Assembly: GCF_005869845.1 (NCBI RefSeq)
Contig: NZ_VAWF01000002.1
Coordinates: forward strand, 248,001 to 312,000
Length of the DNA stretch: 64,000 bases
Source: Fodinibius saliphilus
Lineage (GTDB): Bacteria; Bacteroidota; Rhodothermia; Balneolales; Balneolaceae
Reading direction: 5' to 3'
Positions 1,604 through 38,113 of this stretch are shown here, piece by piece. Numbering within the stretch: the first letter of the stretch is position 1; every line of letters starts with the position of its first letter. The notes under the pieces are model-generated. The model made no database searches. It saw nothing but the letters and a program-made list of their open reading frames with translations, and had not been told where the DNA came from. The position numbers were made by a program, and so were the translations under genes.

Positions 1604-1605
1604 AC

Positions 1606-4348: not shown

Positions 4349-4382
4349 TCCTCAATCCTTAATTACAGTTACTTTGCAATCC

Positions 4383-4826
4383 TTACATATTTATCTTTGT
4401 CTCAGTAACTTCTTTCCAGTTAATAAGTTTACCCGGTTGTTCCTCCACGTGGTTTTCTGCTTTTGTAGCTGTTGGAAAAGCCAACAATGACTCTCCCATA
4501 GGGCTTTTAACAACCTCGCTTTTTACAAACTGAGCATCGGGAGCCTCAATCCATTCTCCCGGATTGGCAAAATTACTTACCCATAACTTTGCATTTTTTA
4601 ATTCTTCCTTATTGTTTCTGTGATAAACGGTCATGCATTCGATAGCATCGAACTTAATTGACTTTCCTTTATCAGTTACAATTTGTGATGCAAATCGCCC
4701 ATCAGTAATCATCATTTTGCAATGTGCACACTCATCACTTCCATAGTGGACTTCTGCCGGTTCCTGGCTGCATGCCACTAACAGGATAAACAAAACAAAC
4801 AATACGGTTGTTCTTAATGCAGTCAT
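4383..4826 (-). CDS. nosL: NosL copper-chaperone lipoprotein
   Basis: A 147-aa lipoprotein with a hydrophobic leader and lipobox LVAC (Cys19). The copper-binding motif follows in DECAHCKMMI (Cys33, Cys36, Met38/39), which is diagnostic for NosL. The family delivers Cu(I) to apo-NosZ at the outer face of the membrane. It lies 34 bp before nosD and 20 bp after the membrane-protein gene in the same operon. Length is typical. Confidence 0.93.
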   Translation of the reverse strand: MTALRTTVLFVLFILLVACSQEPAEVHYGSDECAHCKMMITDGRFASQIVTDKGKSIKFDAIECMTVYHRNNKEELKNAKLWVSNFANPGEWIEAPDAQFVKSEVVKSPMGESLLAFPTATKAENHVEEQPGKLINWKEVTETKINM

Positions 4827-4846
4827 TGCAATCTACGTTATAATTA

Positions 4847-5470
4847 TTAAGCGGCCTTCCGCGAATTACTAGTTTCTACTTTTTCGGTATTATTTCCACC
4901 ATCTGTTTTACCTTCCTTCCACCACACCATGGATGCAATACTCATCGATAAAAGAGCTACGTAAAATCCGATATGAGGCAAAGAGGTAGCATTTATATTT
5001 AATAGTTGTTTACTGCCAATCAGTGGCGGCTGATAGGTCATTCCCGGTACTTTGATCGGGGCGTTAGGGTTTAAGTTATGCCCGTAATCATACCCCCAGA
5101 TATAAAAGTCCACCAGTCCTGCAATGGCAAGCAATACAAACACTCCCAGCCACACTATAATCCATTTTCGGCTACCCCATAATGCAATCATCAAGCCTGT
5201 TACCATTAAAAAGGCAAAGATATAGGGCATTATTTTTAATTCTGGGATAGAGTCAGGGGTAATAGCCTTCATCCCTATATAGTGATTCAGTCCATTGATA
5301 TTATCCAGGTCGTGGGGCTCCTTACCGGTGATATCATTTACCGTAATATTCATACCAATTCCCTCGGGATACTGGGGGGCTTCCATGCTTATCCCCCATA
5401 GAGGAAAGAAATATACTAGGATCAGTAATAATGAGGCTAATCCCATCCATAATCTGTTCTTTTTACTCAT
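4847..5470 (-). CDS. Conserved 4-TM membrane protein of the nos cluster (NosB-like candidate)
   Basis: A 207-aa protein with a hydrophobic segment near residues 8-25, an extracytoplasmic region of about 60 residues, two close segments at about 83-122, and a last one at about 165-182. The periplasmic loop contains an HYIGMKAI block. It lies between nosZ and nosL, where clade II nos clusters often carry a membrane protein sometimes called NosB. I recognise the position and topology but not a firm family signature, so no symbol is assigned. A candidate terminator separates it from nosZ, so it may be expressed at a lower level than nosZ. Possible roles are NosZ electron supply or maturation. Confidence 0.7.
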   Translation of the reverse strand: MSKKNRLWMGLASLLLILVYFFPLWGISMEAPQYPEGIGMNITVNDITGKEPHDLDNINGLNHYIGMKAITPDSIPELKIMPYIFAFLMVTGLMIALWGSRKWIIVWLGVFVLLAIAGLVDFYIWGYDYGHNLNPNAPIKVPGMTYQPPLIGSKQLLNINATSLPHIGFYVALLSMSIASMVWWKEGKTDGGNNTEKVETSNSRKAA

Positions 5471-5503
5471 AACAACCTCGGTCTAAAGTATTTCTGCTTT
5501 TAT

Positions 5504-5535
5504 AAAAAGAGGAAGGGAGCTTTCACCCTCCCCTC
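5504..5535 (-). terminator. Candidate intrinsic terminator after nosZ
   Basis: Read on the minus strand, a G-rich arm GAGGGGAGGG (5535-5526) pairs with TCCCTTCCTC (5518-5509), with one mismatch and several G-U pairs, and is followed by five T (5508-5504). It lies 21 bp past the nosZ stop and before the membrane-protein gene. It may attenuate the accessory nos genes relative to nosZ. Confidence 0.5.
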
Positions 5536-5555
5536 CACGAAGGATTGAGGTCGTT

Positions 5556-7532
5556 TTACTGACCTGTTCCGTAGGCGATTTCTACATCAGATCCTTTTGG
5601 CGATACGCGAATATATCCCTGCATCTCTTGGTGCAGTGCTGAACAGAAGTCTGTACAGTAGAATGGGAACACGCCTTCTTTATTAGGCTCCCATTTAAAG
5701 GTTAGGGTTTCGCCGGGCATAATAAGCAGTTCTGCATTATTGGCACCCTTAATTGCAAATCCGTGCGGCACATCCCAATCCTGCTCAAGGTTTGTAACGT
5801 GGAAATACACTTCATCTCCCACTTTCACACCTTCAATATTGTCAGGAGTAAAGTGGCTTCGGATAGCAGTCATGTATATGTGAACCTCGTTGCCATCGCG
5901 TTCTACTCTAGCTTCTTTCTCGCTGGAGATAGCATCGGGGTGACCATTTTCTTCAAGCTTATAGAATCGCTTTTGATTCTTAATCACTTTTTCAGCAGCA
6001 ATACCCTGTGCATAGTGCGGCTCACCTTCGGTAGGGAAGTCAAGCAACAGCTTCATTTTCTCACCGGATATGTCAATCAGCTGTGCCGAGTGGAACATTT
6101 CAGGTCCAGTAGGCAAATACCGATCTTTGGTAATTTTATTAAGAGCTACCAAATATTTACCGTCAGGATTTTGGCTGTCTCCACCGGGAATCATCAAGTG
6201 ACCAGGAGAATAATAGGTGTTAATACGATCGATAACTTCTGTTTTTTCCACATCCCACTTCACTACTTCAGAAGAGATAAATGCAGTAGTATAGGCATTT
6301 CCTTTTCCGTCAAACTCCGTGTGCAGAGGTCCTAAACCTGGGTTTTCAACCTCTCCATGGAGGATAGAATCGTACTTAAGCACAGGAACTCCCATTACCT
6401 CACCAGCATAATCTTCGTTCTCAATGGCTTCTTCCATCTTTGCAAAAGAGTGCACTGGAATTACCGTTGAAAGCTTACCACCGGCTACGATGTACTTTCC
6501 TGTAGGATCGACATCAACACCATGTGGAGATTTGGGAGTAGGTAAGAAATACACCAAGCCATCAAGCTTCCGTGGATCAAGAACACGTACTTCTTCAATG
6601 GTCTCGCTCTTGGCAATACCACCTTCTTCATGATCAATATAGTTTCGTACGTGCTCTCCGGGCATCATAGTACCTTTGCCCTGTTTCACATACTCAGCAG
6701 CTTTCTTCCAGTTCACCGCCGCAATAAAGTCTTTATCATTTTTCGAAGCATTGATTTCTAACAGCGTATTTGCCTCTTCACTGTTATAACTGGTAAAGAA
6801 AGACCATCCATCAGAAGGACCTTTCCCAGCATGGGACAGGTCATAATCGAACCCTGGCATTAAAATCTGGAAATCAATATTCATTTTTCCTTCATCAGAA
6901 ACCTTGATAAATGAAAGCGTCCCTTTGAAGTTCTCTTTATAAGAGTCAATAGCTACATCCATATTCTGCATATCATCTTCGCTTACAGGAATACTAAAAC
7001 GAGTGGCAGCAGAGATATACTCTGTATTAGGAGTTACAAAAGGAGATGCGTGGTTACCCGCAGAATTTGGTATCTCAATTATTTCTTGCGTCTTAAAGTC
7101 ATCAAGACCAATTCTAGCAACACGAGGTGTATTGTTCTCGTTGATAAAGATCCAACGTCCGTCGGTTTCCCCATCGGTTTGAGACAATTCAGGGTGGTGA
7201 GCATCGCCCCAAGGCACGAAACCGTGTGATGTATTCAACATCGCCTTGGTTTCTTCACTATATCCGTATCCATTCACCGGAGCTTGTGAAAACACAGGCA
7301 CTGTAAATAGGTGACGCCCGGAAGGCAATCCGTAGATTCCCAGCTGTCCGTTATATCCCCCGGAAAAGAATCCGTAAAATTCATCATGTTCACCCGGAGC
7401 AACATATACTTTCGATGCCGCATCGTCGGATGAGCCAATCTGTTGACCGTTCTGGCATCCTGCCAGCAACACTCCTGATACTACCAATAAAGGCAGCGCC
7501 CAGGTCCGTATTATTTTATGTATGGTATTCAT
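5556..7532 (-). CDS. nosZ: Nitrous-oxide reductase, clade II (Sec-type, lipoprotein)
   Basis: A 658-aa NosZ that reduces N2O to N2 outside the cytoplasmic membrane. The leader has no twin-arginine motif; it is a Sec-type lipoprotein signal with lipobox LLAGC (Cys26), so the enzyme is probably membrane-anchored. The central seven-blade propeller contains CuZ-type His motifs (GDAHHPE, GNHASP, SPHGVDVDP, HTEFDG). The C-terminal cupredoxin domain has the CuA set Cys626-x3-Cys630-x3-His634-x2-Met637, plus the partner His in the DVPHGFAI block. All copper-binding motifs look intact. It follows a cytochrome c gene by 54 bp and leads the maturation genes. Sec leader and neighbours place it in clade II. 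Confidence 0.97.
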   Translation of the reverse strand: MNTIHKIIRTWALPLLVVSGVLLAGCQNGQQIGSSDDAASKVYVAPGEHDEFYGFFSGGYNGQLGIYGLPSGRHLFTVPVFSQAPVNGYGYSEETKAMLNTSHGFVPWGDAHHPELSQTDGETDGRWIFINENNTPRVARIGLDDFKTQEIIEIPNSAGNHASPFVTPNTEYISAATRFSIPVSEDDMQNMDVAIDSYKENFKGTLSFIKVSDEGKMNIDFQILMPGFDYDLSHAGKGPSDGWSFFTSYNSEEANTLLEINASKNDKDFIAAVNWKKAAEYVKQGKGTMMPGEHVRNYIDHEEGGIAKSETIEEVRVLDPRKLDGLVYFLPTPKSPHGVDVDPTGKYIVAGGKLSTVIPVHSFAKMEEAIENEDYAGEVMGVPVLKYDSILHGEVENPGLGPLHTEFDGKGNAYTTAFISSEVVKWDVEKTEVIDRINTYYSPGHLMIPGGDSQNPDGKYLVALNKITKDRYLPTGPEMFHSAQLIDISGEKMKLLLDFPTEGEPHYAQGIAAEKVIKNQKRFYKLEENGHPDAISSEKEARVERDGNEVHIYMTAIRSHFTPDNIEGVKVGDEVYFHVTNLEQDWDVPHGFAIKGANNAELLIMPGETLTFKWEPNKEGVFPFYCTDFCSALHQEMQGYIRVSPKGSDVEIAYGTGQ

Positions 7533-7586
7533 AGTACTTATTATTTGTGGTTTATTAATTGAGATAACTCTTAGTGAAAAGACCTA

Positions 7587-8081
7587 TTAAATCTCATTTG
7601 TGTCTTTGTTTTCATTCATGTAACGCAAGAATTCTACGATTGAGCGAGCTTCTTCACGACTTAAATTTTGATTGGGCATCGGGGTCATAAATTCTGCCAG
7701 CTTCTTTTTTGCTTCCGGGTGTTTCTTAACCATCTCAGCCGGATTCAAAATCATATTCATAACGTATTCGGGCGTACGTTCCTCAGTAATTTCTCGTAGT
7801 TGGGGACCTACATATCGCTCATCCATTTTATGACAGGCCGAACACTTGGTTTCAAACATATTTTGTCCCTTCTTGGCCAACTCTTCATCTATTTCGGCCA
7901 AGTCGAGCTCTTCTGTTACGGGACCAATACCGTTTTCTTGCTCAAAGGCCGTAAGCCCACTTTCATTATTTTGTGATGACTGATCAGATGCCTGGTCGCT
8001 ATTTCCGGAACCGCCGCAGCCTACGAACAGTACACTTGCCATTATGGCCAATCCTATTATTTGTTTAATGCTATATTTCAT
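7587..8081 (-). CDS. Monoheme cytochrome c lipoprotein, likely NosZ electron donor
   Basis: A 164-aa exported protein with lipobox LFVGC (Cys22), then a low-complexity Ser/Asn/Asp-rich linker to about residue 60. A class I cytochrome c fold follows with the heme motif CSACH (Cys80, Cys83, His84) and a likely axial Met in the FMTPMPN block (about residue 135). It is the first gene of the nos operon, 54 bp before nosZ, so donation of electrons to the CuA site of NosZ is the most likely job. That role is inferred from position. The Rrf2-type operator lies 25 bp before its start. Confidence 0.88.
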   Translation of the reverse strand: MKYSIKQIIGLAIMASVLFVGCGGSGNSDQASDQSSQNNESGLTAFEQENGIGPVTEELDLAEIDEELAKKGQNMFETKCSACHKMDERYVGPQLREITEERTPEYVMNMILNPAEMVKKHPEAKKKLAEFMTPMPNQNLSREEARSIVEFLRYMNENKDTNEI

Positions 8082-9048: not shown

Positions 9049-10437
9049 ATGACTACTGAAAAAAAGAACCGTTCGTGGGCGGAACCATATCGTATAAAAA
9101 TGGTTGAGCCGGTAAAAATGATTACACGTGAAGAACGGGAAAAAGCCATTAAAGAAGCTGGATATAACACATTCTTATTACGATCCAACGAAGTGTATAT
9201 CGATTTATTAACCGACAGTGGAACTTCTGCTATGAGTGACCGACAATGGGCCGGCATGATGATGGGCGATGAGGCGTATGCCGGAAGCAGGAATTTTTAT
9301 AATTTAGAAGAAGCAATCCAGGAATATTACGGTTATAGCTATGTCGTACCTACCCATCAAGGCCGAGCAGCTGAACATATAATCTCTCAGCTCTTAATTG
9401 ATAAAGGTGATTACGTACCCGGCAACATGTATTTTACTACAACAAAACTTCACCAAGAGTTAGCCGGCGGAACTTTTGTTGACGTAATTATTGATGAGGC
9501 CCATGAGCCTGAAGTTGAGCATCCCTTCAAAGCTAATGTGAATCTTGAAAAGCTTGAAGAACTGATCAATGAAAAAGGGGCAGATCGTATTCCTTATGTA
9601 TCTATTGCTACCTCTGTGAATATGGCCGGTGGACAACCAATCTCGATGGCAAACCTCAAAGAATTGCGGGCACTGACGAATAAATATAATATCCCCATCA
9701 TCCATGACATGACCCGTGTAGCTGAAAATGCTTACTTCATTAAACAGCGTGAAGATGGATACGAAGATACCCCTATCAAAGAAATTGTGCATCAAATATG
9801 CTCTCTGACTGATGGAGCGACAATGAGTGCAAAAAAAGACGCCTTAGTAAACATTGGTGGATTTCTGGCCCTAAATGACGAGGACCTTTACAGAGAAGCC
9901 CAAAATATAGTTGTAGTCTATGAAGGCCTGCATACCTATGGTGGAATGTCTGGCCGAGACATGGAAGCTCTGGCCATTGGTATTACTGAATCTGTAGATG
10001 AAGATCATATTCGAGCTCGAGTGGGCCAGGTACAATACCTGGGCGAAAAACTTATTGATATGGGTGTTCCTGTGGTTCGTCCGATAGGTAGCCATGGAGT
10101 TTTCTTAAATGCTAAGAAGATTTTACCCCACCTCAGCCAAGATGAGTTACCTGCACAAGCATTGGCTGCCGCTTTATACGTTGACTCTGGGGTACGAAGT
10201 ATGGAACGTGGCGTTGTTTCTGCCGGACGAAATCCGGAAACAGGTGAACATAACTATCCTGAACTTGAACTTGTACGCCTAACTATCCCACGCAGAGCAT
10301 ATACCCAGGCACATATGGACGTTGTTGCCGAATCTGTTGAAGCGGTTTATAAAAACAGAGAAGAGGTATCTGGTCTCGCTTTTGATTATGAGCCCGAATA
10401 TTTACGATTCTTCCAATCCCGTTTTAAAGAAGTGTAA
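9049..10437 (+). CDS. tpl: Tyrosine phenol-lyase (beta-tyrosinase)
   Basis: A 462-aa PLP enzyme of the tryptophanase/TPL family (aspartate aminotransferase fold). The PLP lysine is in TMSAKKDALVNIGG. Two blocks point to TPL rather than tryptophanase: RSMERGVVSAGR, which contains the Arg that binds the phenol substrate, and the C-terminal LRFF, where tryptophanase has LRHF. The predicted reaction is tyrosine -> phenol + pyruvate + NH3 in the cytoplasm. It is transcribed away from the Rrf2 gene, with an Rrf2-type operator upstream. The subfamily call is from recalled family signatures. The paralogue at 11924-13315 looks like tryptophanase. Confidence 0.85.
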   Translation: MTTEKKNRSWAEPYRIKMVEPVKMITREEREKAIKEAGYNTFLLRSNEVYIDLLTDSGTSAMSDRQWAGMMMGDEAYAGSRNFYNLEEAIQEYYGYSYVVPTHQGRAAEHIISQLLIDKGDYVPGNMYFTTTKLHQELAGGTFVDVIIDEAHEPEVEHPFKANVNLEKLEELINEKGADRIPYVSIATSVNMAGGQPISMANLKELRALTNKYNIPIIHDMTRVAENAYFIKQREDGYEDTPIKEIVHQICSLTDGATMSAKKDALVNIGGFLALNDEDLYREAQNIVVVYEGLHTYGGMSGRDMEALAIGITESVDEDHIRARVGQVQYLGEKLIDMGVPVVRPIGSHGVFLNAKKILPHLSQDELPAQALAAALYVDSGVRSMERGVVSAGRNPETGEHNYPELELVRLTIPRRAYTQAHMDVVAESVEAVYKNREEVSGLAFDYEPEYLRFFQSRFKEV

Positions 10438-11923: not shown

Positions 11924-13315
11924 TTATTCCAACGGTTCCAGGTGTGCGGAAAAGTGTCGCAGTACCTCCGGCCCATCTACAATTTTATATCCAGTTAGTT
12001 GATCACGCTGTTCATAGGCAGCAATTATAACCTCAGCTAGATAATCAACATGGCTTTGGGTATATACGCGCCGAGGAAATGCAAGGCGGACCAGCTCCAT
12101 AGCCGCTGGTTTTTCTGAACCGTCCGGCTGCTTACCAAACATTACAGATCCTATTTCTACACCACGTACCCCGCCCAGCAGATACAAGGCATTGTTAAAA
12201 GACCAGGCCGGATATTCCAGGGAATCAATATGGGGCAGCATCTCTTTCGCATCAATATACACCGCATGCCCCCCGGTAGGCTCAACAATAGGAACTCCGG
12301 CCTCTAACAGTTTATCTCCCAAATAGGCTATAGACCGAACCCGGTAACGAAGGTAATCTTCATCCAGAGCCTCATATAACCCACTTGCAACAGCCTCCAT
12401 ATCGTAACCGGCCATCCCACCATAAGTGGGGAACCCTTCTGTTAAAATCTCCAGGTTTCGACACTCGGAGGCTAACTCATCATTGTTGAGAGCAAGAAAA
12501 CCTCCAATATTAGCCATTCCATCTTTCTTTGCACTCATCGTACAGCCATCGGCGTAATTGAACATCTGCCGCGCAATCTCTATGGGAGATTTATCCGCAA
12601 AACCTTTCTCCCGGTTTTTAATAAACCAAGCATTTTCTGCGAATCGACAAGCATCAATAAAGAAGGGAATACCGTGATCGCGGGCAAGCTCTGACACGGC
12701 ACGTATATTAGCCATACTTACCGGCTGTCCGCCCCCTGAATTATTGGTCACTGTCATCATTATAATAGGGATATTTTCAGTCCCAACTTCCTGTATAGTT
12801 CGCTCTAACTTTTTGAGATCTATATTACCTTTAAAAGGATGTTGGCTACGGGGCTGCTTACCTTCCTCAATTACCAGATCACGTGCTTCTGCACCCGCAT
12901 GTTCCACATGAGCTCGGGTTGTATCGAAATGAGTATTGCTGGGAACCACATCACCTTCGGAGGCAATAGTTGTAAAGAGAACGTTCTCGGCTGCACGTCC
13001 CTGGTGAGTAGGAATGAGATGTTCGAAACCGGTAATGTCATGCACGGCCGACTCTAACCGATAAAATGAAGAAGAACCGGCATACGATTCATCACTGGAG
13101 ATCATCCCTGACCACTGCCTAGCCGACATGGCCCCGGTGCCGCTATCTGTTAAAAGATCAATCAGCACATCATCTGCCTTCAGTAAAAAAGGATTATATC
13201 CCGCCTGGGCAAGCAGCTCTTTGCGTTCACTCATTTTAGTAAAACGAATAGGCTCAACAGACCGAATGCGAAAAGGTTCTATAATAGTATCGGATTGAAA
13301 TTCTTTAAGCTCCAT
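11924..13315 (-). CDS. tnaA: Tryptophanase (tryptophan indole-lyase)
   Basis: A 463-aa PLP enzyme. The PLP lysine is in CTMSAKKDGMANIGG. GVRGVEIGS replaces the RSMERG block of TPL, and the C-terminus has LRHF with the His characteristic of tryptophanase. Predicted reaction: tryptophan -> indole + pyruvate + NH3. It is convergent with the tpl/lipoprotein side and divergent from the acyl-CoA synthetase gene, sharing a 139-bp promoter region that contains an Rrf2-type operator. With tpl it would give both phenol and indole from aromatic amino acids, with pyruvate as the usable carbon. Confidence 0.88.
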   Translation of the reverse strand: MELKEFQSDTIIEPFRIRSVEPIRFTKMSERKELLAQAGYNPFLLKADDVLIDLLTDSGTGAMSARQWSGMISSDESYAGSSSFYRLESAVHDITGFEHLIPTHQGRAAENVLFTTIASEGDVVPSNTHFDTTRAHVEHAGAEARDLVIEEGKQPRSQHPFKGNIDLKKLERTIQEVGTENIPIIMMTVTNNSGGGQPVSMANIRAVSELARDHGIPFFIDACRFAENAWFIKNREKGFADKSPIEIARQMFNYADGCTMSAKKDGMANIGGFLALNNDELASECRNLEILTEGFPTYGGMAGYDMEAVASGLYEALDEDYLRYRVRSIAYLGDKLLEAGVPIVEPTGGHAVYIDAKEMLPHIDSLEYPAWSFNNALYLLGGVRGVEIGSVMFGKQPDGSEKPAAMELVRLAFPRRVYTQSHVDYLAEVIIAAYEQRDQLTGYKIVDGPEVLRHFSAHLEPLE

Positions 13316-15881: not shown

Positions 15882-18056
15882 CTACTCTTCAGACTTAGGA
15901 TACCACTGGAATCCATCAGCACGGTTAAATTTAACGACAGAACGATGGTTGTTCTCAAATACCACTTTCTTTTGATCGGTGTATAACCATTCTTCACTCT
16001 TGGTATCTCCCAAGTATACTTTGATCGTGTGCTCACCTGCTTTTAAGGGAATATACTCTACTGCACCGCTCATTCCATCATTAAATAGGCCGCTGGGCTC
16101 ATACTTCTGTTCGTGTACCGTTTTCCCATCTATATCTATTCGTAACCGAACATCAGAACGCTCGCGTTTAGCAGGAGCATTACTCGACTGCATGTGCGAT
16201 TGCAGATTTTGTTGTTCCGATTCTTTCTTGGCACTGCCATCCACCGGACGGCCGGGCAATGTAAAAGAAACCACAAACTCAGAATCACTTTGTATAGGTA
16301 CGCTATAAGGAGCATTACTAAAGAAGTAGGTAAGGCTACCTAGCATCAGTACTAAAAATGCACCCATGATATACTTTTTGATTTTACTTACGGAACTCTT
16401 CTCCTCTTTGAAGGTCAACTTTCCGGTATCACGCTGCAACCTTCGAGCCTCTTCAATAAAACCGTCATAATTTGTGCGGTCGTACTGCACATAGTGGATT
16501 CGGGAAGAATCTACCTTATCCTCGCGAAGCTCGGGATGTCGCCCCCCGCTAATACGCTCTTCTGTCCACATAGCACCCAGTCGATAATCCGGCTCGCTTT
16601 GGCATCCCACAATCAAAACACCTTCAGCCCCTTTTCGCAGAGCTCGCTCTATCATAAGCGGATGCACCCATCCCACACAAGGGATAGAGCGAACAATATA
16701 ACCGGGCAACTCTTTGCAGCGACCGGTGGCTTCATCGATATGCAGATCTGCCCCTGCAGAGTTTGAACAGATATAGGCGACATGCGCTGAAGCCTCTTTT
16801 TCCAGCCGTTCGTGAAGCCAGCTATCTATCTCTCTGCGAACATCCATAGCCGGCAAACGGGGAAACTCAATACCCACCGGATCACAAGCGCCTACACAAA
16901 TTCCACAAGCAATACATTTAGAGGGATCAATATTAGCGTAAAAATCACCTTTTTTCTTGTCATCCTTGGCACGCGGTAACATGGTAATGGCATTAAAGGG
17001 ACAATCTTTATAACACTGTTCACAACCGTTACAGCGATCCGAATCTACCTGTGGTTTTGGACGCCTTTTCTTAACGAGTAGCCATGGGACACTGACAAAA
17101 CCGATAAAACCTATAAGCGTAATTGCCCAAAGCATACCTCCCTCCAGACGATCAGTAAAGTAGACGGGTAGCATGTAGAAATAATCGAGCGCCACCGTTT
17201 GCTGAACCTCAAGCATTTTAGCAGGCTCAGCTAAACCGGCTGGCAGCATAACTGATATAATTGATAATGAGCCTAACACCGCAATTGTCATCGGCTTTTT
17301 TGTGATAAAATGAGCTTTATTAAGCCGTGAAACGTGAAGCCACAGTGCAATTCCCATAGCTAAAGGAATGAGCATATGAAAGAAAAAGACCAAGAAAAAC
17401 AGCAGTGAATTGAAACTGTCATCCGTCAAAAAAGAACGACTCAATGGTTCGGCAAAAATTGGAAGCTGGTCAAGCATCTTAGCCGTACCTACAGCCACTT
17501 GATTGGCTGCTTCATCCCATACCAGCCAATATCCGAGCCAGCCATCAAACCACAGAAGTGCCAGCGCAACCACACCCGTTACCCATGCCAGCCACCGAGC
17601 CCCGCCAAATCGACGGGCAAAAAACATCTTAAATGCATGGAACATGATAAACAACATGCAGGCATCAGAGCTATACCGGTGCAAGGACCGAAAGAAATCA
17701 CCCAGCATGTTAATCTGGTTCAAAGAATCATAGGCTTGATGCACACTTGGCTTGTACCAAAACAACAGAACAAAACCTGAAACCAATGCAATAATAAAAG
17801 TGGTATTGGCAATGGCACCCGACTGTGTAAAGGGATTAAGATTTTGCGGAAGGTATCGTTCTACAAACCTATCAAGCTGATGAAACCATCGATCGACCAC
17901 ACGAAAAAGAGATTCCCCGCGTACCGGTGGATCGGGGCGCTGGTCCTTAACTTGTGAGGAGAACTCAATACTATCCGAGTCTATTCCATTTTTACCGGAG
18001 GCGAGATCTACCAGATTTATTTCCTCTTTATCAATATCCATTTTTAATCCTTTCAT
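15882..18056 (-). CDS. Cytochrome b / 2x[4Fe-4S] ferredoxin / MvhD-like fusion, membrane electron-transfer protein
   Basis: A 724-aa multidomain protein. Residues 50-330 are a cytochrome b N-terminal module with bis-heme ligands His126/His140 in one helix and His227/His241 in another, both 14 apart as in cytochrome b/b6. Residues 342-391 hold two [4Fe-4S] motifs, CNGCEQCYKDCP and CIACGICVGACDP. Residues 424-545 resemble the MvhD/FlpD delta subunit, with Cys430, Cys447, Cys460 and Cys485. The position where I recall a further family Cys is Asp490. A TM helix at 561-580 and a C-terminal beta domain follow. It is the last gene of the NO-reductase operon, 22 bp after the SCO gene. It may move quinol electrons to or from a cytoplasmic or membrane partner; the partner is unknown. 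Confidence 0.8.
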   Translation of the reverse strand: MKGLKMDIDKEEINLVDLASGKNGIDSDSIEFSSQVKDQRPDPPVRGESLFRVVDRWFHQLDRFVERYLPQNLNPFTQSGAIANTTFIIALVSGFVLLFWYKPSVHQAYDSLNQINMLGDFFRSLHRYSSDACMLFIMFHAFKMFFARRFGGARWLAWVTGVVALALLWFDGWLGYWLVWDEAANQVAVGTAKMLDQLPIFAEPLSRSFLTDDSFNSLLFFLVFFFHMLIPLAMGIALWLHVSRLNKAHFITKKPMTIAVLGSLSIISVMLPAGLAEPAKMLEVQQTVALDYFYMLPVYFTDRLEGGMLWAITLIGFIGFVSVPWLLVKKRRPKPQVDSDRCNGCEQCYKDCPFNAITMLPRAKDDKKKGDFYANIDPSKCIACGICVGACDPVGIEFPRLPAMDVRREIDSWLHERLEKEASAHVAYICSNSAGADLHIDEATGRCKELPGYIVRSIPCVGWVHPLMIERALRKGAEGVLIVGCQSEPDYRLGAMWTEERISGGRHPELREDKVDSSRIHYVQYDRTNYDGFIEEARRLQRDTGKLTFKEEKSSVSKIKKYIMGAFLVLMLGSLTYFFSNAPYSVPIQSDSEFVVSFTLPGRPVDGSAKKESEQQNLQSHMQSSNAPAKRERSDVRLRIDIDGKTVHEQKYEPSGLFNDGMSGAVEYIPLKAGEHTIKVYLGDTKSEEWLYTDQKKVVFENNHRSVVKFNRADGFQWYPKSEE

Positions 18057-18078: not shown

Positions 18079-19032
18079 TTATGCAGCCGGTCTTTCTTCT
18101 ATCAGCGTTTTTGCCGCTTTTATTAACCACTCCTTTTGTCGATCTCCCAGCGTAAATCGATAGGCGACCTTTCCTCGTTTATCTATTAGGATAAAAACGT
18201 TAGCATGGGCAATTGCTCCATCCTCACGCTTGCGACGCGGGATATTCAATTTATCCAATACCTCATTAACATACTTTTTATCACCGGTCAGAAGGTGTTG
18301 GTTGGGACCATTCAGTTCATAATGTTCGGCCGTCATCTTCAACATTTTAGGCGTATCCTTATCAGGATCCATTGTTATAGCCATAAGCTGTAATTGCTCT
18401 TTTCCTCCTATCTTCAACCTATTCATTACATCGTACGCCTGCTCCAATATCACCGGACATGTTTCTGAACAAGACGCATACACGGCTGTAACCATCACCA
18501 CTTGGTTACGATAATCTGTTAATGATATACTATCTTTATTCTGATTTATCAGTGTAAATTCTGGAGGACTGATAGCTGTTCTAATTTCTTTGGCCGGGAA
18601 AGGCAACTCTCCGCTTTCACCATCTGAATACAATGAGGGTAAAGTGGCTCCTACGAGCACAATGATAACAAAACCCGGTATAATATAGGGACCAGCTTTT
18701 TTGGGGTAGTTCTTAACCATTTCTGATATGGGCTTATACCAAAACCCAAAAATAAAAATACTTAATATCGTAGGCTGCACCAGGAACATGACTAAATAGA
18801 TGGACTCTATTTCTCCTGTGGCTGGGTTATATCCAAGGCACCATTTCTTAAATTCGCCCGCAAATGTTCCAAGGGTAGAATCCGAAACGGGTATTAAGGT
18901 AACTGTTACTACCAGAAGGGCTAAAAAAAATAGTACAGAAAGCATAAAAACCGGAAAACGCCATGAGGAAAAGAATGACTCAAGGCCAGTTAAAAAGTTT
19001 CGAAATCTATATTTTGTACTTTCTTTATTCAT
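18079..19032 (-). CDS. SCO1/SenC family copper chaperone with extra TM helices
   Basis: A 317-aa protein from the start at 19032 (MNKESTKYRF). The frame is open to 19098, but the extra 22 residues are not hydrophobic and look non-native. Two or three TM segments occupy about residues 20-140. A thioredoxin-like SCO domain follows with the copper motif CSETCP (CxxxC) and a distal His in the IAHANVF block. SCO proteins load or reduce the CuA site of subunit II. Position 84 bp after the subunit I gene fits maturation of that CuA centre. Fused N-terminal TM segments make it longer than a typical SCO. Confidence 0.85.
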   Translation of the reverse strand: MNKESTKYRFRNFLTGLESFFSSWRFPVFMLSVLFFLALLVVTVTLIPVSDSTLGTFAGEFKKWCLGYNPATGEIESIYLVMFLVQPTILSIFIFGFWYKPISEMVKNYPKKAGPYIIPGFVIIVLVGATLPSLYSDGESGELPFPAKEIRTAISPPEFTLINQNKDSISLTDYRNQVVMVTAVYASCSETCPVILEQAYDVMNRLKIGGKEQLQLMAITMDPDKDTPKMLKMTAEHYELNGPNQHLLTGDKKYVNEVLDKLNIPRRKREDGAIAHANVFILIDKRGKVAYRFTLGDRQKEWLIKAAKTLIEERPAA

Positions 19033-19116
19033 AGCAGTGCTTCTGTCAGCTATGGGAGCCGGCCCGGAGAAAAAACCACGGGCCAGCATCGAGTGCATAG
19101 CATATTATTACCGGTA

Positions 19117-20844
19117 TTATCGTACGAACCAGAGATCCGCAAGGGCTTTCCAGTTAGCAAAATAATAGACCGCAAACGTCAACAAGAATATGATGACCAC
19201 GGTTAGGGTACCGGGTGTTTTAATGTGTTCGTAATCTTTTCCTTCTTCTTCGTATCCTTTTTCAATAAGCTTATCTTTCATACGGGTAGAGTGCTCATCT
19301 TGCCAGCTCTTCATAGGTCGCCCTTCGTTAGAACGGCCAAAGAACACAGCTGCTACCGTTAAGCCTATAAATAATAACAGGCCTAAAAAGGCGATAATAC
19401 CGCCAACTCCTACCAGCCCCAGCATAACGTGAGCGATAGGATCAAAACCGGCACTCAGGATAGATCCTGAGAAATCAACGTCCCAGTGACGTCGTGGCAC
19501 TCCGTACGATCCTGCAAATGACATTCCCATTGACATCACTACAATGCCGCCTGCAAAAAGATACGGCTGAATGCGTGCAAGGCCTTTCAGGTAAAACTCC
19601 TTTTGAAAGATCAAGGGAACCAGGTAATAAGCCAGTCCCATAAATGCCAGTGATGTACCACCTACTACCGTCGCGTGGAAGTGACCGGGAATACGCAAGG
19701 TATTGTGTGCAATAATGTTAATTTGCTCAGTACCCAGAGTTACGCCGGTTATACCGCCAATAAATCCAAAGATGATGATAGACAACATTACGGCAGAGAA
19801 TCCAGGATCTTTCCATGGCAATTTTGTAAACCATCCGAAAATTCCTTTGGTAAAACCTTTACGTCGTTGCGCAACCTCCAGTGAAGCAGGAACAGTATAT
19901 CCGTGAATCATGGAAGCAAGAACAGCAAGGTACATCGCATAAGAAGTGTTCCAGATTTTCCATCCGGGACCAACACCGGGGTCTACCAGTAAGTGGTGAG
20001 CAGAAGCCAGGTTAATAAACAATATGTATAACAGGAATGCTCCTCGACATACGGTTTCATTTAATGGCTTTGCACCAGTGGTCATAGTACCCATGAAGTA
20101 CCAAACGGCAACCATAGCACAAACATTAATCTGCTGTGACATATGACCGAGTCCCCACCAAAGTAACCGGTACAAGCCAGGATCTACTGGACCAGTCCAG
20201 CCCATGGACCATAAAAAGGTAGGAATTAGTGCAGCTGCACCATGTGCCAAGGCAAGTACAGCAATAATTGCAGCAGCTAATGCACCAAATGTAACCAAGG
20301 GCATTGATCCCTCGTAAGTTTTGTCTCGTTTGGCTATATAAAGGGTTGCAAAAAAGTTAAAGCAAACAATGAGTGACCCTACTGCAAAGAGTATGATACC
20401 CAGATAGAATAACGGGTGTGCTTTTAACGGTACATAAGAGGTCAAAAGAACATCTGCCTGGCCGGCTAAGATGATATAGTTTGTCATTAACGCACCTATC
20501 CCCATTAAGCCGAGTGATATCCAGCCTAATGTTTTTGAAAACAAACGGCTGTTCAAGAGCGTTGTGGAGGCAAAATAAAGGATCCCCATCTCCATGAAAA
20601 TGATCCAAAAAACCAACATGTTCACCCCATGCAGGGTAAGCATACGGTAGTAATATACGCTGTCCAATAAGTGAACAGCAGTCCATCGTGTTAGGGCCAG
20701 ACCAATAGCGGCAATGGCACCAACGAGAAGAAAGACAACGGCCAACACCGCATTAACCTTCGTAAAAAACTCTGCGTTACGAAAAACGCGAAGACCGGTT
20801 GTCTTACAGGTTCGAAATTTCGCTATAGCTTGTGTAGCATTCAT
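19117..20844 (-). CDS. Heme-copper oxidase superfamily subunit I, eNOR-type NO reductase candidate
   Basis: A 575-aa protein with about 12-14 TM helices. All six metal-ligand histidines are present: His72 (low-spin heme), His234 (helix VI), His283-His284 (helix VII), His388 and His390 (helix X). The Tyr that oxygen reductases crosslink to the helix VI His (His+4) is Gln238 here, in WWGLGHMSQQINV. Loss of the Tyr argues against O2 reduction and fits the eNOR group of NO reductases known from Rhodothermus, as recalled from the literature. Predicted reaction: 2 NO + 2 e- + 2 H+ -> N2O + H2O. It lies downstream of a CuA subunit II and next to SCO. An oxidase function cannot be excluded by sequence alone. 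Confidence 0.8.
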   Translation of the reverse strand: MNATQAIAKFRTCKTTGLRVFRNAEFFTKVNAVLAVVFLLVGAIAAIGLALTRWTAVHLLDSVYYYRMLTLHGVNMLVFWIIFMEMGILYFASTTLLNSRLFSKTLGWISLGLMGIGALMTNYIILAGQADVLLTSYVPLKAHPLFYLGIILFAVGSLIVCFNFFATLYIAKRDKTYEGSMPLVTFGALAAAIIAVLALAHGAAALIPTFLWSMGWTGPVDPGLYRLLWWGLGHMSQQINVCAMVAVWYFMGTMTTGAKPLNETVCRGAFLLYILFINLASAHHLLVDPGVGPGWKIWNTSYAMYLAVLASMIHGYTVPASLEVAQRRKGFTKGIFGWFTKLPWKDPGFSAVMLSIIIFGFIGGITGVTLGTEQINIIAHNTLRIPGHFHATVVGGTSLAFMGLAYYLVPLIFQKEFYLKGLARIQPYLFAGGIVVMSMGMSFAGSYGVPRRHWDVDFSGSILSAGFDPIAHVMLGLVGVGGIIAFLGLLLFIGLTVAAVFFGRSNEGRPMKSWQDEHSTRMKDKLIEKGYEEEGKDYEHIKTPGTLTVVIIFLLTFAVYYFANWKALADLWFVR

Positions 20845-20863: not shown

Positions 20864-21388
20864 TTATTCGACTATGATTTTACCGGTCATCATATGGTGT
20901 CCGATTCCGCAAAACTCATTGCAGATAATTTCGAAATCACCGGTTGAGGTAGGTGTTATAGTAAGCACGTGATCGTAACCGGGCAGAATATGAAAGTTCA
21001 TATTCATAGGCAGCAGTGAGAAACCGTGCTGCAAATCCGGAGATGAAATGTGTATCCGGTACGTTTGCCCCTTCTTAAGTTTAAGAATTGGATACCATCG
21101 CCACATCTCTCCAACGAGATATGCATCTCCACCGGGAGAGGGTTCCACGATAGGAACGCCCTTTTCTTCTCCTACTTTGTTCGATTCGATAAATTGATCG
21201 GTACGATCCAGAAAAGCCGATGCTTCCACTTTATAGGATTCACCAGTACTGTTCTGCTTTCCTTTAAAGTGCCAGTACGGCATTGTTACAGACATGACTA
21301 AGCACCACGTCAGCGCCAAACCTACCCATAACCGCTCGGTACCAGTCGGTGCTTTAAACCAGTTTCCAACAGGACTAAAAATGCTCAT
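20864..21388 (-). CDS. CuA-containing subunit II of the NO-reductase/oxidase
   Basis: A 174-aa protein with one N-terminal TM helix (about 19-38) and a periplasmic cupredoxin domain. The CuA ligands are complete: His121 in LQHGFSL, then Cys156-x3-Cys160-x3-His164-x2-Met167 in CNEFCGIGHHMM. It would take electrons from a soluble donor such as azurin or cytochrome c and pass them to the low-spin heme of subunit I, 19 bp downstream. It is shorter than most CoxII proteins, like ba3-type subunit II. The CuA site distinguishes the complex from cNOR. Confidence 0.9.
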   Translation of the reverse strand: MSIFSPVGNWFKAPTGTERLWVGLALTWCLVMSVTMPYWHFKGKQNSTGESYKVEASAFLDRTDQFIESNKVGEEKGVPIVEPSPGGDAYLVGEMWRWYPILKLKKGQTYRIHISSPDLQHGFSLLPMNMNFHILPGYDHVLTITPTSTGDFEIICNEFCGIGHHMMTGKIIVE

Positions 21389-23268: not shown

Positions 23269-23721
23269 ATGCATTTACCTCAAACAGCTGAATATGCGTT
23301 ACGCGCAATGGCCTGTATTGCCCTCAAAAAAGACGGGCGTCCTGTATCATCAAATGTACTAGCACGAGCTACAGGAATACCCGGCCACTATTTATCAAAA
23401 ATATTACGCAAGATGGTGGAAGCAGACCTGGTAACCTCACAAAAAGGACACGGTGGTGGCTTCCGACTTGCCAAAGAACCAAGTGAAATTAAATTTAAAA
23501 GCATCTTGGCAACAGTAGATTATAAAATTGAACCCAACAGCTGTGTATTTGGCTGGGATGAATGCGATAGCGAAGACCCATGCCCACTCCATAACACCTG
23601 GAGTCAACTTAAAGACTCATTTCAGTGGTGGGCTGAAAACACAACCCTCCAGGATGTTATTGACAGACCAGGGGAAGCCGAGACACTTCTTGATCCCATG
23701 AATACCCCCTCTGGAGATTAA
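23269..23721 (+). CDS. Rrf2 family regulator, NsrR-like candidate
   Basis: A 150-aa regulator beginning MHLPQTAEYALRAMACIAL. The winged helix covers about 1-80 with a KGHGGGFRL wing. Cluster cysteines are in CVFGWDECDSEDPCPLH (C-x6-C-x5-C-x2-H). Divergent transcription from the NO-reductase operon and operators in the shared promoter suggest an NO-sensing, NsrR-like role. That function is inferred. Its sequence differs clearly from the two close paralogues at 8263 and 31304, in line with its distinct operator arms. Confidence 0.88.
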   Translation: MHLPQTAEYALRAMACIALKKDGRPVSSNVLARATGIPGHYLSKILRKMVEADLVTSQKGHGGGFRLAKEPSEIKFKSILATVDYKIEPNSCVFGWDECDSEDPCPLHNTWSQLKDSFQWWAENTTLQDVIDRPGEAETLLDPMNTPSGD

Positions 23722-23809: not shown

Positions 23810-25054
23810 TTACTTTATAAAGCCGGGTGTTACTGATAACATTATCCAACCCCAATGCTGGGTTGACTCGGCTGCGGGCACTCCTTTTAAAAGCTTCATT
23901 GAATCTTTCGAACTTAAGAGCGAATAGCCCATTTTTAGTGCTATATCTTCACTAAAAGTGTGTGTCAGATTAAAGTCGAATTCAGAGCCCAATCCTTTAT
24001 CCAAAGTAGCTATTGCTGCAACCTTCTCTGCAAGTGCAAAATTGTGGTACGTTAATGACAAGCTTGTCTTTTCATAGGCTGTATAAGTTGCTTTCACATA
24101 AATATCTTGAAGCCCTCCAAACTGGGTATCTCCGGGTACATTCAGGAAATAATCCATATTCCCATAAAACTTGTGGTTGGTAGCATACAACGTATTAAAT
24201 GCATTGCGTTGCGGATTACTATCATCAATACCTCCCCCGGACAGATAATCATATCCGGCTGTTAAGCCAAAGCTACCGAAGTTGTAACCCGCCTTTAATG
24301 CATACATCCAAGAAGAAATATCATTTCTAATATTATCATCCCCACTCTGCAAATACAGACTCCCTGTAACATTAACTGCATCTTTTTTATAAGCCAGGTG
24401 AGTTCCATATGTATACCTAAAGTTGGTAGCATCCGTAACTTGAAAGCCATCAGAAACTCCAATTACAGAAACCTTAAATGCATCCATCTTTTTATGCAGC
24501 CACAAATACGATAATACCTTATAGTTATTAATCGAATAGGTATTCCCAATAATATTTTGGGCTTCCTGGTTATAAGCAGCACCTAGATCCAACTTAAAGT
24601 TATTGTTATCAATTTTTACCACTAACGCATCGTGGCTACGGGCCTGTTGTGTCCAATTTACACTGCCTAATAGACGGTGATCATCATAAATAAGCTCCTG
24701 CCTTCCCAGCTTCAGATCCATTGCATCTGTAATCTTTAATTGAGCCCAAACTTCATGGATATTTACATTGGCATTATCTTGTAGCTGAGCAACTTCTCCC
24801 CAAACGCGAACATCCTGCCCCGATACTTTAATTTTATATAGATCTGTTTTGTAGTTAAGAGTTAAACGTGCCCGCTGTGACGTAAAGAATGCAGGATCAA
24901 CATCCGAAGTTTGTACAGTCCTATAACCATTCCTGTATTCCGTTCTCGGCCGCAACTCACCATCCAATGTCATCTGTGCCTGTACCAACGCCGGAATTGC
25001 AAATAATACACACGAAATAATTGTTAGTCGGCGAATAGCTTTATGAAATATCAT
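23810..25054 (-). CDS. Outer-membrane beta-barrel of alginate-export-like family
   Basis: A 414-aa protein with a Sec signal peptide (cleavage near VQAQ), then a beta-rich, aromatic-tipped barrel. The conserved patterns include LDGELRPRTEYRNGY at the N-terminus, FFTSQRARLTLNY, VWAQLKITDAMDLKLGRQEL and YDDHRLLG, typical of the Alginate_exp/DUF1302-like outer-membrane family. It probably forms a pore; the substrate is unknown. It lies in the same orientation after azurin and nirK, which suggests a link with anion (nitrite) passage, although this is only positional. The gap of 135 bp to azurin allows an independent promoter. Confidence 0.75.
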   Translation of the reverse strand: MIFHKAIRRLTIISCVLFAIPALVQAQMTLDGELRPRTEYRNGYRTVQTSDVDPAFFTSQRARLTLNYKTDLYKIKVSGQDVRVWGEVAQLQDNANVNIHEVWAQLKITDAMDLKLGRQELIYDDHRLLGSVNWTQQARSHDALVVKIDNNNFKLDLGAAYNQEAQNIIGNTYSINNYKVLSYLWLHKKMDAFKVSVIGVSDGFQVTDATNFRYTYGTHLAYKKDAVNVTGSLYLQSGDDNIRNDISSWMYALKAGYNFGSFGLTAGYDYLSGGGIDDSNPQRNAFNTLYATNHKFYGNMDYFLNVPGDTQFGGLQDIYVKATYTAYEKTSLSLTYHNFALAEKVAAIATLDKGLGSEFDFNLTHTFSEDIALKMGYSLLSSKDSMKLLKGVPAAESTQHWGWIMLSVTPGFIK

Positions 25055-25189
25055 TGCTAATAATTTTTAAAATCTTATATGATTAAAAGTTCAACCATTT
25101 TTTATTAAAACCGAAGAGAATTGCTTTGTGCAATCCTCTCCAGTCTTTAAGATGGAAACCCAGAGTTACGATAAACTAGGTTGCCTTTT

Positions 25190-25654
25190 TTACTTAACCG
25201 TCAGTACTCCTTTCATTCCACCCATGTAGTGCCCGGGGAAACTGCAGATGTACTCATAGTCGCCAGACTCTTCAGGAGCCGTAAAGGTGACTTCTACTGT
25301 TTCGCCGCCACCGGCCAAACCTGTGTAAGCAATGATCTGATCCTTCATATCCGCATCTGTAGGGATATATTCATTGCCTGATGCTTTGGCCGAAGCACGA
25401 GCAACAGCTGTAACATCAGCATCTGCTGCCAAGAGTACGAAGTTATGAGCCATTGCTGTTTTCGGGAAGTCACTAATAGTAGTGAGCTTAACCGTAATTT
25501 TTTGCCCTGGCTGAGCTTCAATATTTGTTACCGTAAACTTCATCTGGTTCGTACCATCCATTTCGATAACCTTCGGTGCTGTATCATTAGCCATTACGAC
25601 TTGCGCCATAAACATGACCAGCAGTACGGGTAATATTCGCTTTATCGTTTTCAT
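25190..25654 (-). CDS. Azurin-type blue copper protein
   Basis: A 154-aa secreted cupredoxin with a signal peptide ending VVMAND. The type 1 copper ligands are the His in MAHNFVLL and the Cys, His and Met in YICSFPGHYMGGMKG, which is the azurin arrangement. It carries single electrons in the periplasm, probably to NirK and possibly to the CuA subunit of the NO reductase. It lies 35 bp after nirK and likely shares its transcript. Length and motifs are typical. Confidence 0.93.
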   Translation of the reverse strand: MKTIKRILPVLLVMFMAQVVMANDTAPKVIEMDGTNQMKFTVTNIEAQPGQKITVKLTTISDFPKTAMAHNFVLLAADADVTAVARASAKASGNEYIPTDADMKDQIIAYTGLAGGGETVEVTFTAPEESGDYEYICSFPGHYMGGMKGVLTVK

Positions 25655-25689
25655 AGTCCTAGTATTTCTTAATTGGAATTCGTTATTAA

Positions 25690-26826
25690 TTAGGTAATGT
25701 CCGGATCGAAGATATCAGCTTCTTTAGCACCCTCTACATTAATGATGCCGAGCATACCTTTCTTCGCTACACGTGTAAGCGCGTGATCTACCATCTTAAC
25801 TGGTCCGGGTACCGGGAAGTCCATCTCAAAAATTCCGCAGCTTCCTGGAGGCACTTGACAAGTCTGAACGTAACGCTCTGGTTCACTTGCAATAGCTCCT
25901 TCTCTCCAAGCCTTTGTAAATACATTACCAATGGGGTGGAAATTACTGGTTACGTTTGGTCCACCTGTTACAAGGTATACACGAGCGGTATCACCTTTCT
26001 TCACTGTAAGTGCACCATGACGATTTCCTGTAATCGCATACTTTTCACCATTCAGCACTACATAGGTTGGATCTTCAGCCTTCATTCTTTCGGTATCAAA
26101 ACCATGCAATCCTTTAGTCCCAGCTGCCTTGTCGGTATATATTTCGTTCTGTCCGAAATAAAACTCGTGGTCAACTTCTGGTAACCCCTCTTCAGGCTCT
26201 ACCAAAATCATTCCGTACATACCACTGCTGATATGATAATCCATACGGGGTACAGCACAGTGATAGATATATGCACCGGGGTACATCGCCTTAAACTTCA
26301 CCTTTTTCGATTGACCGGGAGGGCAAATAGTAGCATCTGCTGCACCACCCGGGCCATAACAAGCGTGGAAATCCACGTTGTGAATCATCGTATTATCAGT
26401 AAGATTCTTGTGGTTTAAAATGATGGTATCACCCCGGCGTACACGAAGCATTGGCCCTGGAACCTGCCCACCATACGTCAAATACTTGAACTTAACACCA
26501 TCTTCTATCTCTGCAACGACTTCTTTACTCTCCAATGTTATTTCGTGCGTTTTTGGAGTACGTCGCTTGATAGGAGCAGGAATATCCGTTGGATCTGCCG
26601 CTACTCTATTTACTTTAGGCAGAGAGAAAATAGATGTGGACGCCGGATCAGTACTACTTGGAGTTACTACATCATTCGCTTTCGATTTGAACGGAAATCC
26701 CATACTTGCCAAAAACCCACCGGAGAGTAATGCCGCACCAGTGTTTCTCAGAAATTTCTTTCGGGATTGCTTACCGTCTATATTAAGGTCTTTGTTTTCA
26801 ACCGTTTTATCGTTTTTCGTTTCCAT
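25690..26826 (-). CDS. nirK: Copper-containing nitrite reductase
   Basis: A 378-aa two-cupredoxin NirK that reduces nitrite to NO in the periplasm. TMIHNVDFHACYG carries a type 1 His, the catalytic Asp (D of NVDFH) and a type 2 His. IYHCAVPRMDYHISSGMYG carries a type 2 His and the type 1 Cys, His and Met. SNFHPIGNVF carries the second catalytic His. The N-terminus has an SRKKFLRNTGAALLSGG leader, a Tat-like motif with RK instead of RR. It is the first gene of a nirK-azurin(-porin) group and has an Rrf2-type half-match upstream and a large regulatory gap. All metal and catalytic residues are present. Confidence 0.96.
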   Translation of the reverse strand: METKNDKTVENKDLNIDGKQSRKKFLRNTGAALLSGGFLASMGFPFKSKANDVVTPSSTDPASTSIFSLPKVNRVAADPTDIPAPIKRRTPKTHEITLESKEVVAEIEDGVKFKYLTYGGQVPGPMLRVRRGDTIILNHKNLTDNTMIHNVDFHACYGPGGAADATICPPGQSKKVKFKAMYPGAYIYHCAVPRMDYHISSGMYGMILVEPEEGLPEVDHEFYFGQNEIYTDKAAGTKGLHGFDTERMKAEDPTYVVLNGEKYAITGNRHGALTVKKGDTARVYLVTGGPNVTSNFHPIGNVFTKAWREGAIASEPERYVQTCQVPPGSCGIFEMDFPVPGPVKMVDHALTRVAKKGMLGIINVEGAKEADIFDPDIT

Positions 26827-34850: not shown

Positions 34851-35035
34851 TATTTATGCTTGTCGGTTTTAGCCTGATGGTGGCACTGCTCTTCCTAGGA
34901 CTTTTTTTCTGGGCTGTCCGTGACGGGCAATATGATGACGGACATACCCCGGCAATGCGAATCTTATTCGATAAGAACAAAGACAATTCGAAGAAACAAT
35001 CAAAAACAACAAACACTAAAAACAATACCGATTAA
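34841..35035 (+). CDS. ccoS: CcoS cbb3 assembly protein
   Basis: A 64-aa protein with one N-terminal TM helix, then the FFWAVRDGQYDDGHTPAMRILFD block that defines CcoS/FixS. It is required for cofactor insertion into cbb3 oxidase in studied species. It overlaps ccoI by 10 bp and the next start by 1 bp (ATGG at TAATGG), so translation is coupled. Confidence 0.92.
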   Translation: MEVIFMLVGFSLMVALLFLGLFFWAVRDGQYDDGHTPAMRILFDKNKDNSKKQSKTTNTKNNTD

Positions 35036-37233: not shown

Positions 37234-37242
37234 TATAACGTC

Positions 37243-37431: not shown

Positions 37432-37433
37432 CT

Positions 37434-38045: not shown

Positions 38046-38056
38046 CAATTTAGAAT

Positions 38057-38088
38057 AGAAGCCCGGGAAGCTAAATCCCGGGCTTTTT
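38057..38088 (+). terminator. Intrinsic terminator after ccoP
   Basis: AAGCCCGGGA (38059-38068), loop AGCTAAA, TCCCGGGCTT (38076-38085), then TTT. A strong 10-bp stem 13 bp after the ccoP stop. ccoG downstream may need its own promoter or read-through. Confidence 0.88.
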
Positions 38089-38113
38089 AAAAAGAAGGTT
38101 AGTACTACCGAAC

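Follow-up and report, generated by a model that had tools for sequence, protein, structure and literature searches.

A Cytochrome b–Ferredoxin–MvhD Fusion Protein Encoded Beside an eNOR-Type Reductase in Fodinibius saliphilus: a Possible Electron-Transfer Subunit of B-Family-Like Heme-Copper Reductases

The window, a stretch of 64,000 nucleotides from Fodinibius saliphilus (contig NZ_VAWF01000002.1, forward-strand positions 248,001 to 312,000), contains a gene whose product joins a cytochrome b, two [4Fe-4S] ferredoxin motifs and an MvhD/FlpD domain, and which lies beside a nitric oxide (NO) reductase of the eNOR type. The question raised by this locus is what such a fusion protein does for the reductase. 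No account of the fusion as a reductase partner was found in that literature, the main NOR-diversity study lying outside the search, and none is given in the accessible parts of PMC4770552, PMC10734462, PMC12569097, PMC5736913, PMC9012536 and PMC12954380.

Table 1. Position and strand of the features of the fusion gene cluster, numbered from the first letter of the window.
Feature	Position	Strand	Basis or size
Fusion protein, cytochrome b – 2x[4Fe-4S] – MvhD/FlpD – TM – beta domain	15882..18056	-	724 aa
Complex III-type cytochrome b core (predicted), residues 58-330	17067..17885	-	Pfam, PDB profile matches, VIA-align
Quinol-site-like motif D-Y-F-Y at PEWY place, residues 291-294	17175..17186	-	alignment
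Two [4Fe-4S] ferredoxin motifs, residues 335-395	16872..17054	-	Pfam, conservation
MvhD/FlpD domain, residues 426-543, Cys 430/447/460/485	16428..16781	-	Pfam, alignment
Last transmembrane helix (predicted), residues 558-580	16317..16385	-	predicted model, VIA-align
Predicted periplasmic beta-sandwich, residues 584-724	15885..16307	-	predicted structure
SCO1/SenC protein, domain 180-311 after hydrophobic N-terminal stretches	18079..19098	-	Pfam
eNOR-type SUI, H234...Q238, H283 H284, H388, H390	19117..20844	-	Pfam, alignment
SUII, CuA motif C-x3-C-x3-H-x2-M	20864..21388	-	Pfam, motif
HCO subunit I homolog without helix-VII His-His pair, 480 aa	21579..23021	-	Pfam COX1, hhalign
Rrf2-family regulator, divergent	23269..23721	+	Pfam

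The cluster consists of five minus-strand genes in the order HCO-like protein, CuA-containing subunit II (SUII), subunit I (SUI), SCO and fusion (Table 1). The coordinates and length assigned to the fusion in the first-pass annotation (15882-18056, 724 aa) were correct, the gene being on the minus strand with its start at 18056 and its stop at 15882. This start lies 22 bases beyond the SCO stop and no minus-strand gene was found close behind the fusion, in agreement with the proposal that it closes the NO-reductase cluster behind SCO. The best solved relatives of SUI in a profile search of the PDB were ba3 oxidases. As judged from sequence, SUI is of the eNOR type, with Gln for the cross-linked Tyr, a B-family-like HCO character and a CuA-type SUII. 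The HCO-like protein gave a clear Pfam COX1 match and an hhalign match of 99.5% to SUI, and its profile retrieved no PDB sequence at E 0.01; H74, H226, H361, H363 and E218 were present in all 35 sequences and the helix-VII His-His pair was absent. Its sequence thus identifies it as a conserved second HCO homolog adjoining the eNOR, with an apparently incomplete binuclear site. Neither a Rieske protein nor a cytochrome c1 was detected among the cluster proteins by Pfam.

Pfam placed Cytochrome_B at fusion residues 65-247 (1.9e-19), Fer4 and Fer4_7 inside residues 335-391, and FlpD (MvhD) at residues 426-543 (2.1e-10, 41.1 bits against a cut-off of 22.3), all over cut-off, and the cytochrome b part matched cytochrome b6 in the profile search of the PDB. 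A scan of species genomes gave 121 confirmed relatives, of which the best 80 loci were analysed. Sixty-nine full-length ORFs from these 80 loci passed a length and completeness filter, and 68 of them (L078 was dropped as near-identical to L077) were aligned with the query fusion (P0001) and two relatives; the resulting 71 rows leave out 11 of the 80 loci and include only L094 among the nine Chloroflexota eNOR-type fusions. The heme ligands H126, H140, H227 and H241 and all eight ferredoxin Cys were invariant (71/71), so that the bis-heme cytochrome b, the two [4Fe-4S] motifs and the MvhD-like domain named in the first-pass annotation were all recovered. Residues C430, C447, C460 and C485 are presumably the ligands of the MvhD cluster; C430 and C460 were found in 71/71 sequences and C485 in 69/71, and the fourth Cys was either residue 447 (30/71) or the column of residue 489 (51/71), 66/71 having one or both. 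The D-Y-F-Y motif was aligned with PEWY by eye against a cytochrome b sequence, a putative correspondence. D291 was invariant (71/71) and D-x-[WF]-[YF] stood at the PEWY place in nearly all homologs, residue 293 being W in 36, F in 31, Y in 2, L in 1 and V in 1, and residue 294 Y in 64 and F in 7.

An AlphaFold2 model of the fusion built from the 71-sequence alignment had a pLDDT of 89.5 and a pTM of 0.87. The top Foldseek matches of this model in the PDB were cytochromes b, and comparison with the Foldseek candidates by VIA-align gave Z 18.9-23.2 over 247-262 aligned residues among the 50 matches listed, actinobacterial bc1-aa3 supercomplexes heading the list. The model thus assigns a complex III cytochrome b fold to residues 58-330, which backs the earlier assignment of a bis-heme quinol-type cytochrome b. 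The aligned range nearly always started at 57-75 and ended mostly at 585-592, in some cases at 329-330 and once at 382. Helix 558-580 may therefore pair at least partly with a late cytochrome b helix, a match that we infer since VIA-align gives the first and last aligned residue only. From the predicted model and the usual cytochrome b topology, the order would be an N-terminus inside, helices A-F, a cytoplasm-facing ferredoxin-MvhD insert, the last helix and a periplasmic beta domain. A separate model of the C-terminal domain (residues 581-721) had a pLDDT of 86.4, and the structure search with it gave generic beta-sandwich matches only (best Z 8.4). Near residue 621 of this domain two Cys flank a His-Met pair in many Myxococcota homologs, and Balneolota homologs keep the His-Met without the Cys; from its sequence this place is a possible metal or disulfide site. 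In one genome (G030, L018:8863-11110) the fusion is divided into a 578-aa cytochrome b-ferredoxin-MvhD protein and a 176-aa protein of the C-terminal domain, and in another (G011, L019:10180-10587) this domain stands alone as 135 aa, with no other cluster protein recognised within 20 kb.

A search for the same domain order in other genomes, as proposed in the first-pass annotation, found it with SUI adjoining in 72 of the best 80 of 121 loci, a count to be read with the use of two short peptide patterns in the scan, which favour close relatives and may miss homologs without a reductase. The case that was to break the link, homologs mostly lacking reductase genes, was thus not encountered. In the eight loci without SUI only 0.7-2.8 kb lay upstream of the match, so that the SUI gene may be cut off. 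The 72 SUI carried Gln (eNOR-type) in 46 cases and Tyr (oxygen-reductase type) in 23, and 3 were unreadable. The suggested tie to an NO reductase therefore holds in so far as an eNOR-type SUI adjoins, but it is not specific for NOR; a NOR-only function was ruled out by the 23/72 Tyr-type loci, which make the partner more broadly a B-family-like reductase with CuA. Within the same best 80 of 121, SUI shared the strand of the fusion in 72/72 (median gap 1074 b for Gln, 518 b for Tyr), SUII was present at 43/46 Gln and 22/23 Tyr loci, and SCO at 45/46 and 12/23, respectively. Gln-type loci belonged to Balneolota, Myxococcota, Planctomycetota, Spirochaetota, Verrucomicrobiota, Nitrospirota, Pseudomonadota and Chloroflexota, and Tyr-type loci to Chloroflexota and Actinomycetota. 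The relatives thus adjoin NO or O2 reductases, enzymes to which the fusion probably belongs as a dedicated electron-transfer partner that has drawn little notice. Since independent genomes show this same architecture, an assembly chimera is unlikely. The environmental isolate Fodinibius halophilus also has the cluster, its fusion being 89% identical.

The full fusion was found in 7 of 58 genomes (own genome included), with SUI, SUII, SCO and the HCO-like gene adjoining in all seven. Among 395 genomes of the phylum group of the window it occurred in 9 (E <= 1e-40), and the same nine had SUI (E <= 2.6e-199) at most 1.3 kb from the fusion; G396 deviated, the fusion match ending at 519 of 715 positions and the SUI frame containing one stop codon. 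SUI without fusion was found in 7 of the 16 SUI-bearing genomes of this group (467-491 bits); the four of these that were read had Gln and CuA, and one distant Rrf2 match was the only other partner. Three genomes (G423, G507 and G547) carried a Tyr-linked fusion as well as a Gln-linked one, each adjoining its own reductase, and a fourth (G445) has the two kinds as well, with one side read. Two Nitrospirota loci (L067:2869-10486 and L066:30-6775) contained two tandem copies of the fusion with an HCO-like gene downstream.

The loci were sorted into three classes. Class A has a Gln-type SUI with SCO and mostly the HCO-like gene, which was present in 34 of the 46 Gln loci among the best 80 of 121; in 5 of the 12 lacking it the locus starts at SUII or SUI. 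Class B has a Tyr-type SUI and no HCO-like gene (0/23, best 80 of 121). A C-terminal CxxCH was found in 20 of 22 full-length Tyr-type fusions versus 0 of 38 full-length Gln-type ones, and Pfam confirmed a cytochrome c in both CxxCH fusions scanned (L070 and L077). In the two Tyr-type loci whose fusions lack it, L092 and L093, a cytochrome c is encoded separately by a gene lying between SUI and fusion; cytochrome c, C-terminal or separate, was therefore seen beside oxygen-reductase-type partners only. In the predicted topology the Fe-S insert and this cytochrome c would lie on opposite sides of the membrane, as expected of an electron-transfer subunit. Class C comprises nine Chloroflexota eNOR-type loci (L094, L142, L146-L149 and L151-L153), all with DsbD_2-like and heavy-metal-ATPase-like genes as assigned by BLAST clustering, with Pfam on L142 only. 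In seven of these nine fusions the MvhD C430, C460 and C485 are missing, while the eight ferredoxin Cys are kept in 9/9, so that conservation is stricter in the ferredoxin part than in the MvhD cluster. Matches were found in 28 of 221 Chloroflexota genomes, with 13 full-length matches in 9 genomes; SUI was near 11 of the 12 full-length matches examined, two of which are the places of L077 and L090. In L150, the fusion is directly preceded by an ATPase-like gene, and no SUI was found on the 10.5-kb contig despite 7.9 kb upstream.

A tree of the cytochrome b-ferredoxin part of the fusion (73 rows, with a root that serves drawing only) contained classes A (41), B (23) and C (9) as supported groups. 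In the SUI tree (77 rows) class B, class C and the fusion-less eNORs were supported, the four fusion-less SUI forming their own clade (100/100), and class A was an unresolved set of branches. Fusion and SUI distances were correlated with r = 0.844 (n=73), 0.855 in class A (41), 0.820 in class A without Balneolaceae (32) and 0.977 in class B (23), and 0 of 2000 permutations reached the observed r in each set. Shared descent of linked genes would produce this correlation just as contact would.

We tentatively favour, at a probability just short of even, that the fusion serves a B-family-like heme-copper reductase, in this case eNOR, as its dedicated electron-transfer subunit and has a cytoplasmic Fe-S branch. 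The domain make-up, the conserved ligands, the gene order, the correlated divergence and the predicted fold form its basis, and the addition of cytochrome c exactly with the oxygen-reductase-type partner, together with the complex III-type cytochrome b, led to it. Most likely the cytochrome b takes electrons from (mena)quinol at a site on the periplasmic side, where Asp291 is the marker, and these would pass to the CuA of SUII, to SUI and to NO; the adjacent SUII/SUI pair is the most likely membrane-side partner, in a putative physical complex. The ferredoxin-MvhD insert on the proposed cytoplasmic side would provide a link between the inner heme b and a soluble carrier, and this branch may be either an outlet for a low-potential electron or an inlet. 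Several observations count against this electron-transfer reading: the cluster has no Rieske protein or cytochrome c1, the quinol motif is altered, an NrfD-type protein in 22/23 genomes is possibly another quinol route, 10/23 have further cytochrome b genes, maturation genes are often neighbours (SCO; heavy-metal ATPase and DsbD_2 in Chloroflexota; heme O synthase), the MvhD Cys are lost in 7/9 of class C, and there are fusion-less eNOR-like SUI as well as L150.

Among the competing explanations copper-site assembly is the strongest, given that the fusion has SCO, ATPase-like, DsbD-like and heme O synthase genes around it. The protein would then resemble CcoG, a factor of cbb3 oxidase biogenesis composed of a TM part, a cytoplasmic ferredoxin, a TM and a periplasmic beta domain, and cytoplasmic electrons would cross the membrane to reduce Cu(II) or the thiols of SCO or CuA for copper insertion. 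Such a role is rather unlikely in our estimate, although it agrees with this general layout, with SCO at 45/46 Gln and 12/23 Tyr loci (best 80 of 121), with the DsbD_2-like and heavy-metal-ATPase-like genes at all nine Chloroflexota eNOR-type loci, with a fusion and ATPase gene without SUI on the contig of L150, and with a gene family found in 23 loci, directly after the fusion in 19, one member of which was confirmed as heme O synthase. Membership in the CcoG family was ruled out on domains, since FixG_C and Fer4_5 were not found in the fusion at E 0.01 by Pfam, while both are seen in the CcoG of the same genome; hhalign between the two proteins covered the ferredoxin motifs only. A CcoG-like function is further opposed by the CcoG that the genome already has in its cbb3 cluster, and by the bis-heme complex III fold, the invariant Asp and the fused cytochrome c, which exceed the needs of a cupric reductase.

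Unlikely, too, is a wire from cytoplasm to periplasm, in which a soluble dehydrogenase or ferredoxin would deliver electrons through MvhD and ferredoxin to the b hemes, CuA and finally NO or O2 without quinol. It is in line with the accessible part of PMC9012536, where MvhD is an input adaptor in HdrABC-Mvh, with a match of the ferredoxin-MvhD end of HdrA2 to fusion residues 335-548 (69.7 bits, far under the model cut-off), and with a Pyr_redox_2 flavoprotein gene within ~4 kb in six Tyr-type loci (four on the strand of the fusion, two opposite; assigned by Pfam on three of the six, e.g., L085:13178-14617). This flavoprotein is a possible redox partner of Tyr-type fusions, but no dehydrogenase was recognised beside Gln-type fusions among the identified flank clusters, the complete cytochrome b fold with its invariant D291 points to a quinol site, and inward-to-outward electron flow would spend membrane potential. 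The search of the conserved flanks for a cytoplasmic partner gave no clear answer, a minority of the 30 flank clusters being identified; other conserved flanks were redoxin/SCO-like genes, small cytochrome c genes and a lipoprotein family (weak NCBIfam match). Co-location of fusion and reductase without function is highly improbable: the distance correlation is compatible with it and nothing speaks for it specifically, but the adjacency is the same across many phyla while the flanks differ.

Returning to the electron-transfer subunit, its boldest form, which we regard as quite doubtful, is a Rieske-free, quinol-bifurcating cytochrome b in which NO or O2 reduction drives an uphill reduction inside the cell. 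One quinol electron would go by CuA to NO (or O2), and the other through both b hemes, the two [4Fe-4S] and MvhD to a low-potential carrier in the cytoplasm. Among the systems found, the closest precedent for such an outlet, though Rieske-bearing, is offered by the anammox Rieske/cytochrome b complexes with an NAD(P) oxidoreductase, for which NAD(P)+ reduction by bifurcation has been proposed (PMC12954380, accessible part). Like the fusion, these have a cytochrome b with a cytoplasm-side redox module; unlike it, in that source they contain Rieske and multiheme c parts and neither MvhD nor an HCO partner.

With complex III cytochrome b (bc1/b6f, QcrB) the fusion has in common the predicted fold and the four heme-ligand His, but its cluster lacks a Rieske protein, the PEWY region is altered, the ferredoxin-MvhD part is inserted and a terminal beta domain is present. 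It has the FlpD domain, the cluster Cys and the order ferredoxin then MvhD in common with MvhD and HdrA2-MvhD, but it is membrane-bound and without the HdrA flavin part. CcoG/FixG, as generally understood, also combines a ferredoxin with a C-terminal periplasmic beta domain, whereas the fusion has a cytochrome b. A Chloroflexi ORF, RME88945.1, with C1 cytochrome, cytochrome b6, ferredoxin-like and FlpD domains (appendix table of PMC8756737) apparently has the Tyr-type fusion architecture; in the accessible part of that paper it is listed as a C1-bearing ORF, without the tie to a reductase seen here. The eNOR was defined by Gln in place of Tyr (PMC8756737, accessible part) and found together with NirK in an operon (PMC4653789). 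The Gln, the cupredoxin-type SUII and the nearby NirK are as in the present locus, but a cytochrome b fusion or a second HCO homolog is mentioned neither in PMC4653789 nor in the accessible part of PMC8756737. Additions to the first-pass annotation are the predicted complex III fold, the domain at the C-terminus and the second HCO homolog at the start of the cluster. A cytochrome b that is linked by gene position to NO and O2 reductases in many phyla, and that has a cytoplasmic Fe-S branch, would feed these enzymes in a new way; N2O production could thereby be coupled to the quinol pool and perhaps also to redox carriers of the cytoplasm. In genome surveys the fusion is a marker that divides fusion-linked from fusion-less eNORs.

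In the own genome FlpD was found in the fusion only, besides which there was one weak partial Cytochrome_B match under cut-off, and an NrfD-type protein is encoded. Among 23 fusion-bearing genomes searched, the fusion was the only PF00033 cytochrome b in 13, further cytochrome b genes were found in 10 and an NrfD-type protein in 22; the fusion as sole quinol route is thus not borne out. The window also contains a cbb3 oxidase cluster (32415-40046) with a heavy-metal P-type ATPase, a CcoN/O fusion, a CcoP-like protein, CcoG and FixH. Denitrification-related genes (194-8081 and 23810-26826) encode hemN, NosD, NosZ (Sec type), a cytochrome c and copper nitrite reductase, together with an azurin-like protein (under its cut-off) and a porin-like protein. 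The genes at 9049-10437 and 11924-13315, on opposite strands, are paralogs of 462 and 463 aa with ~47% identity in the cross-species comparison.
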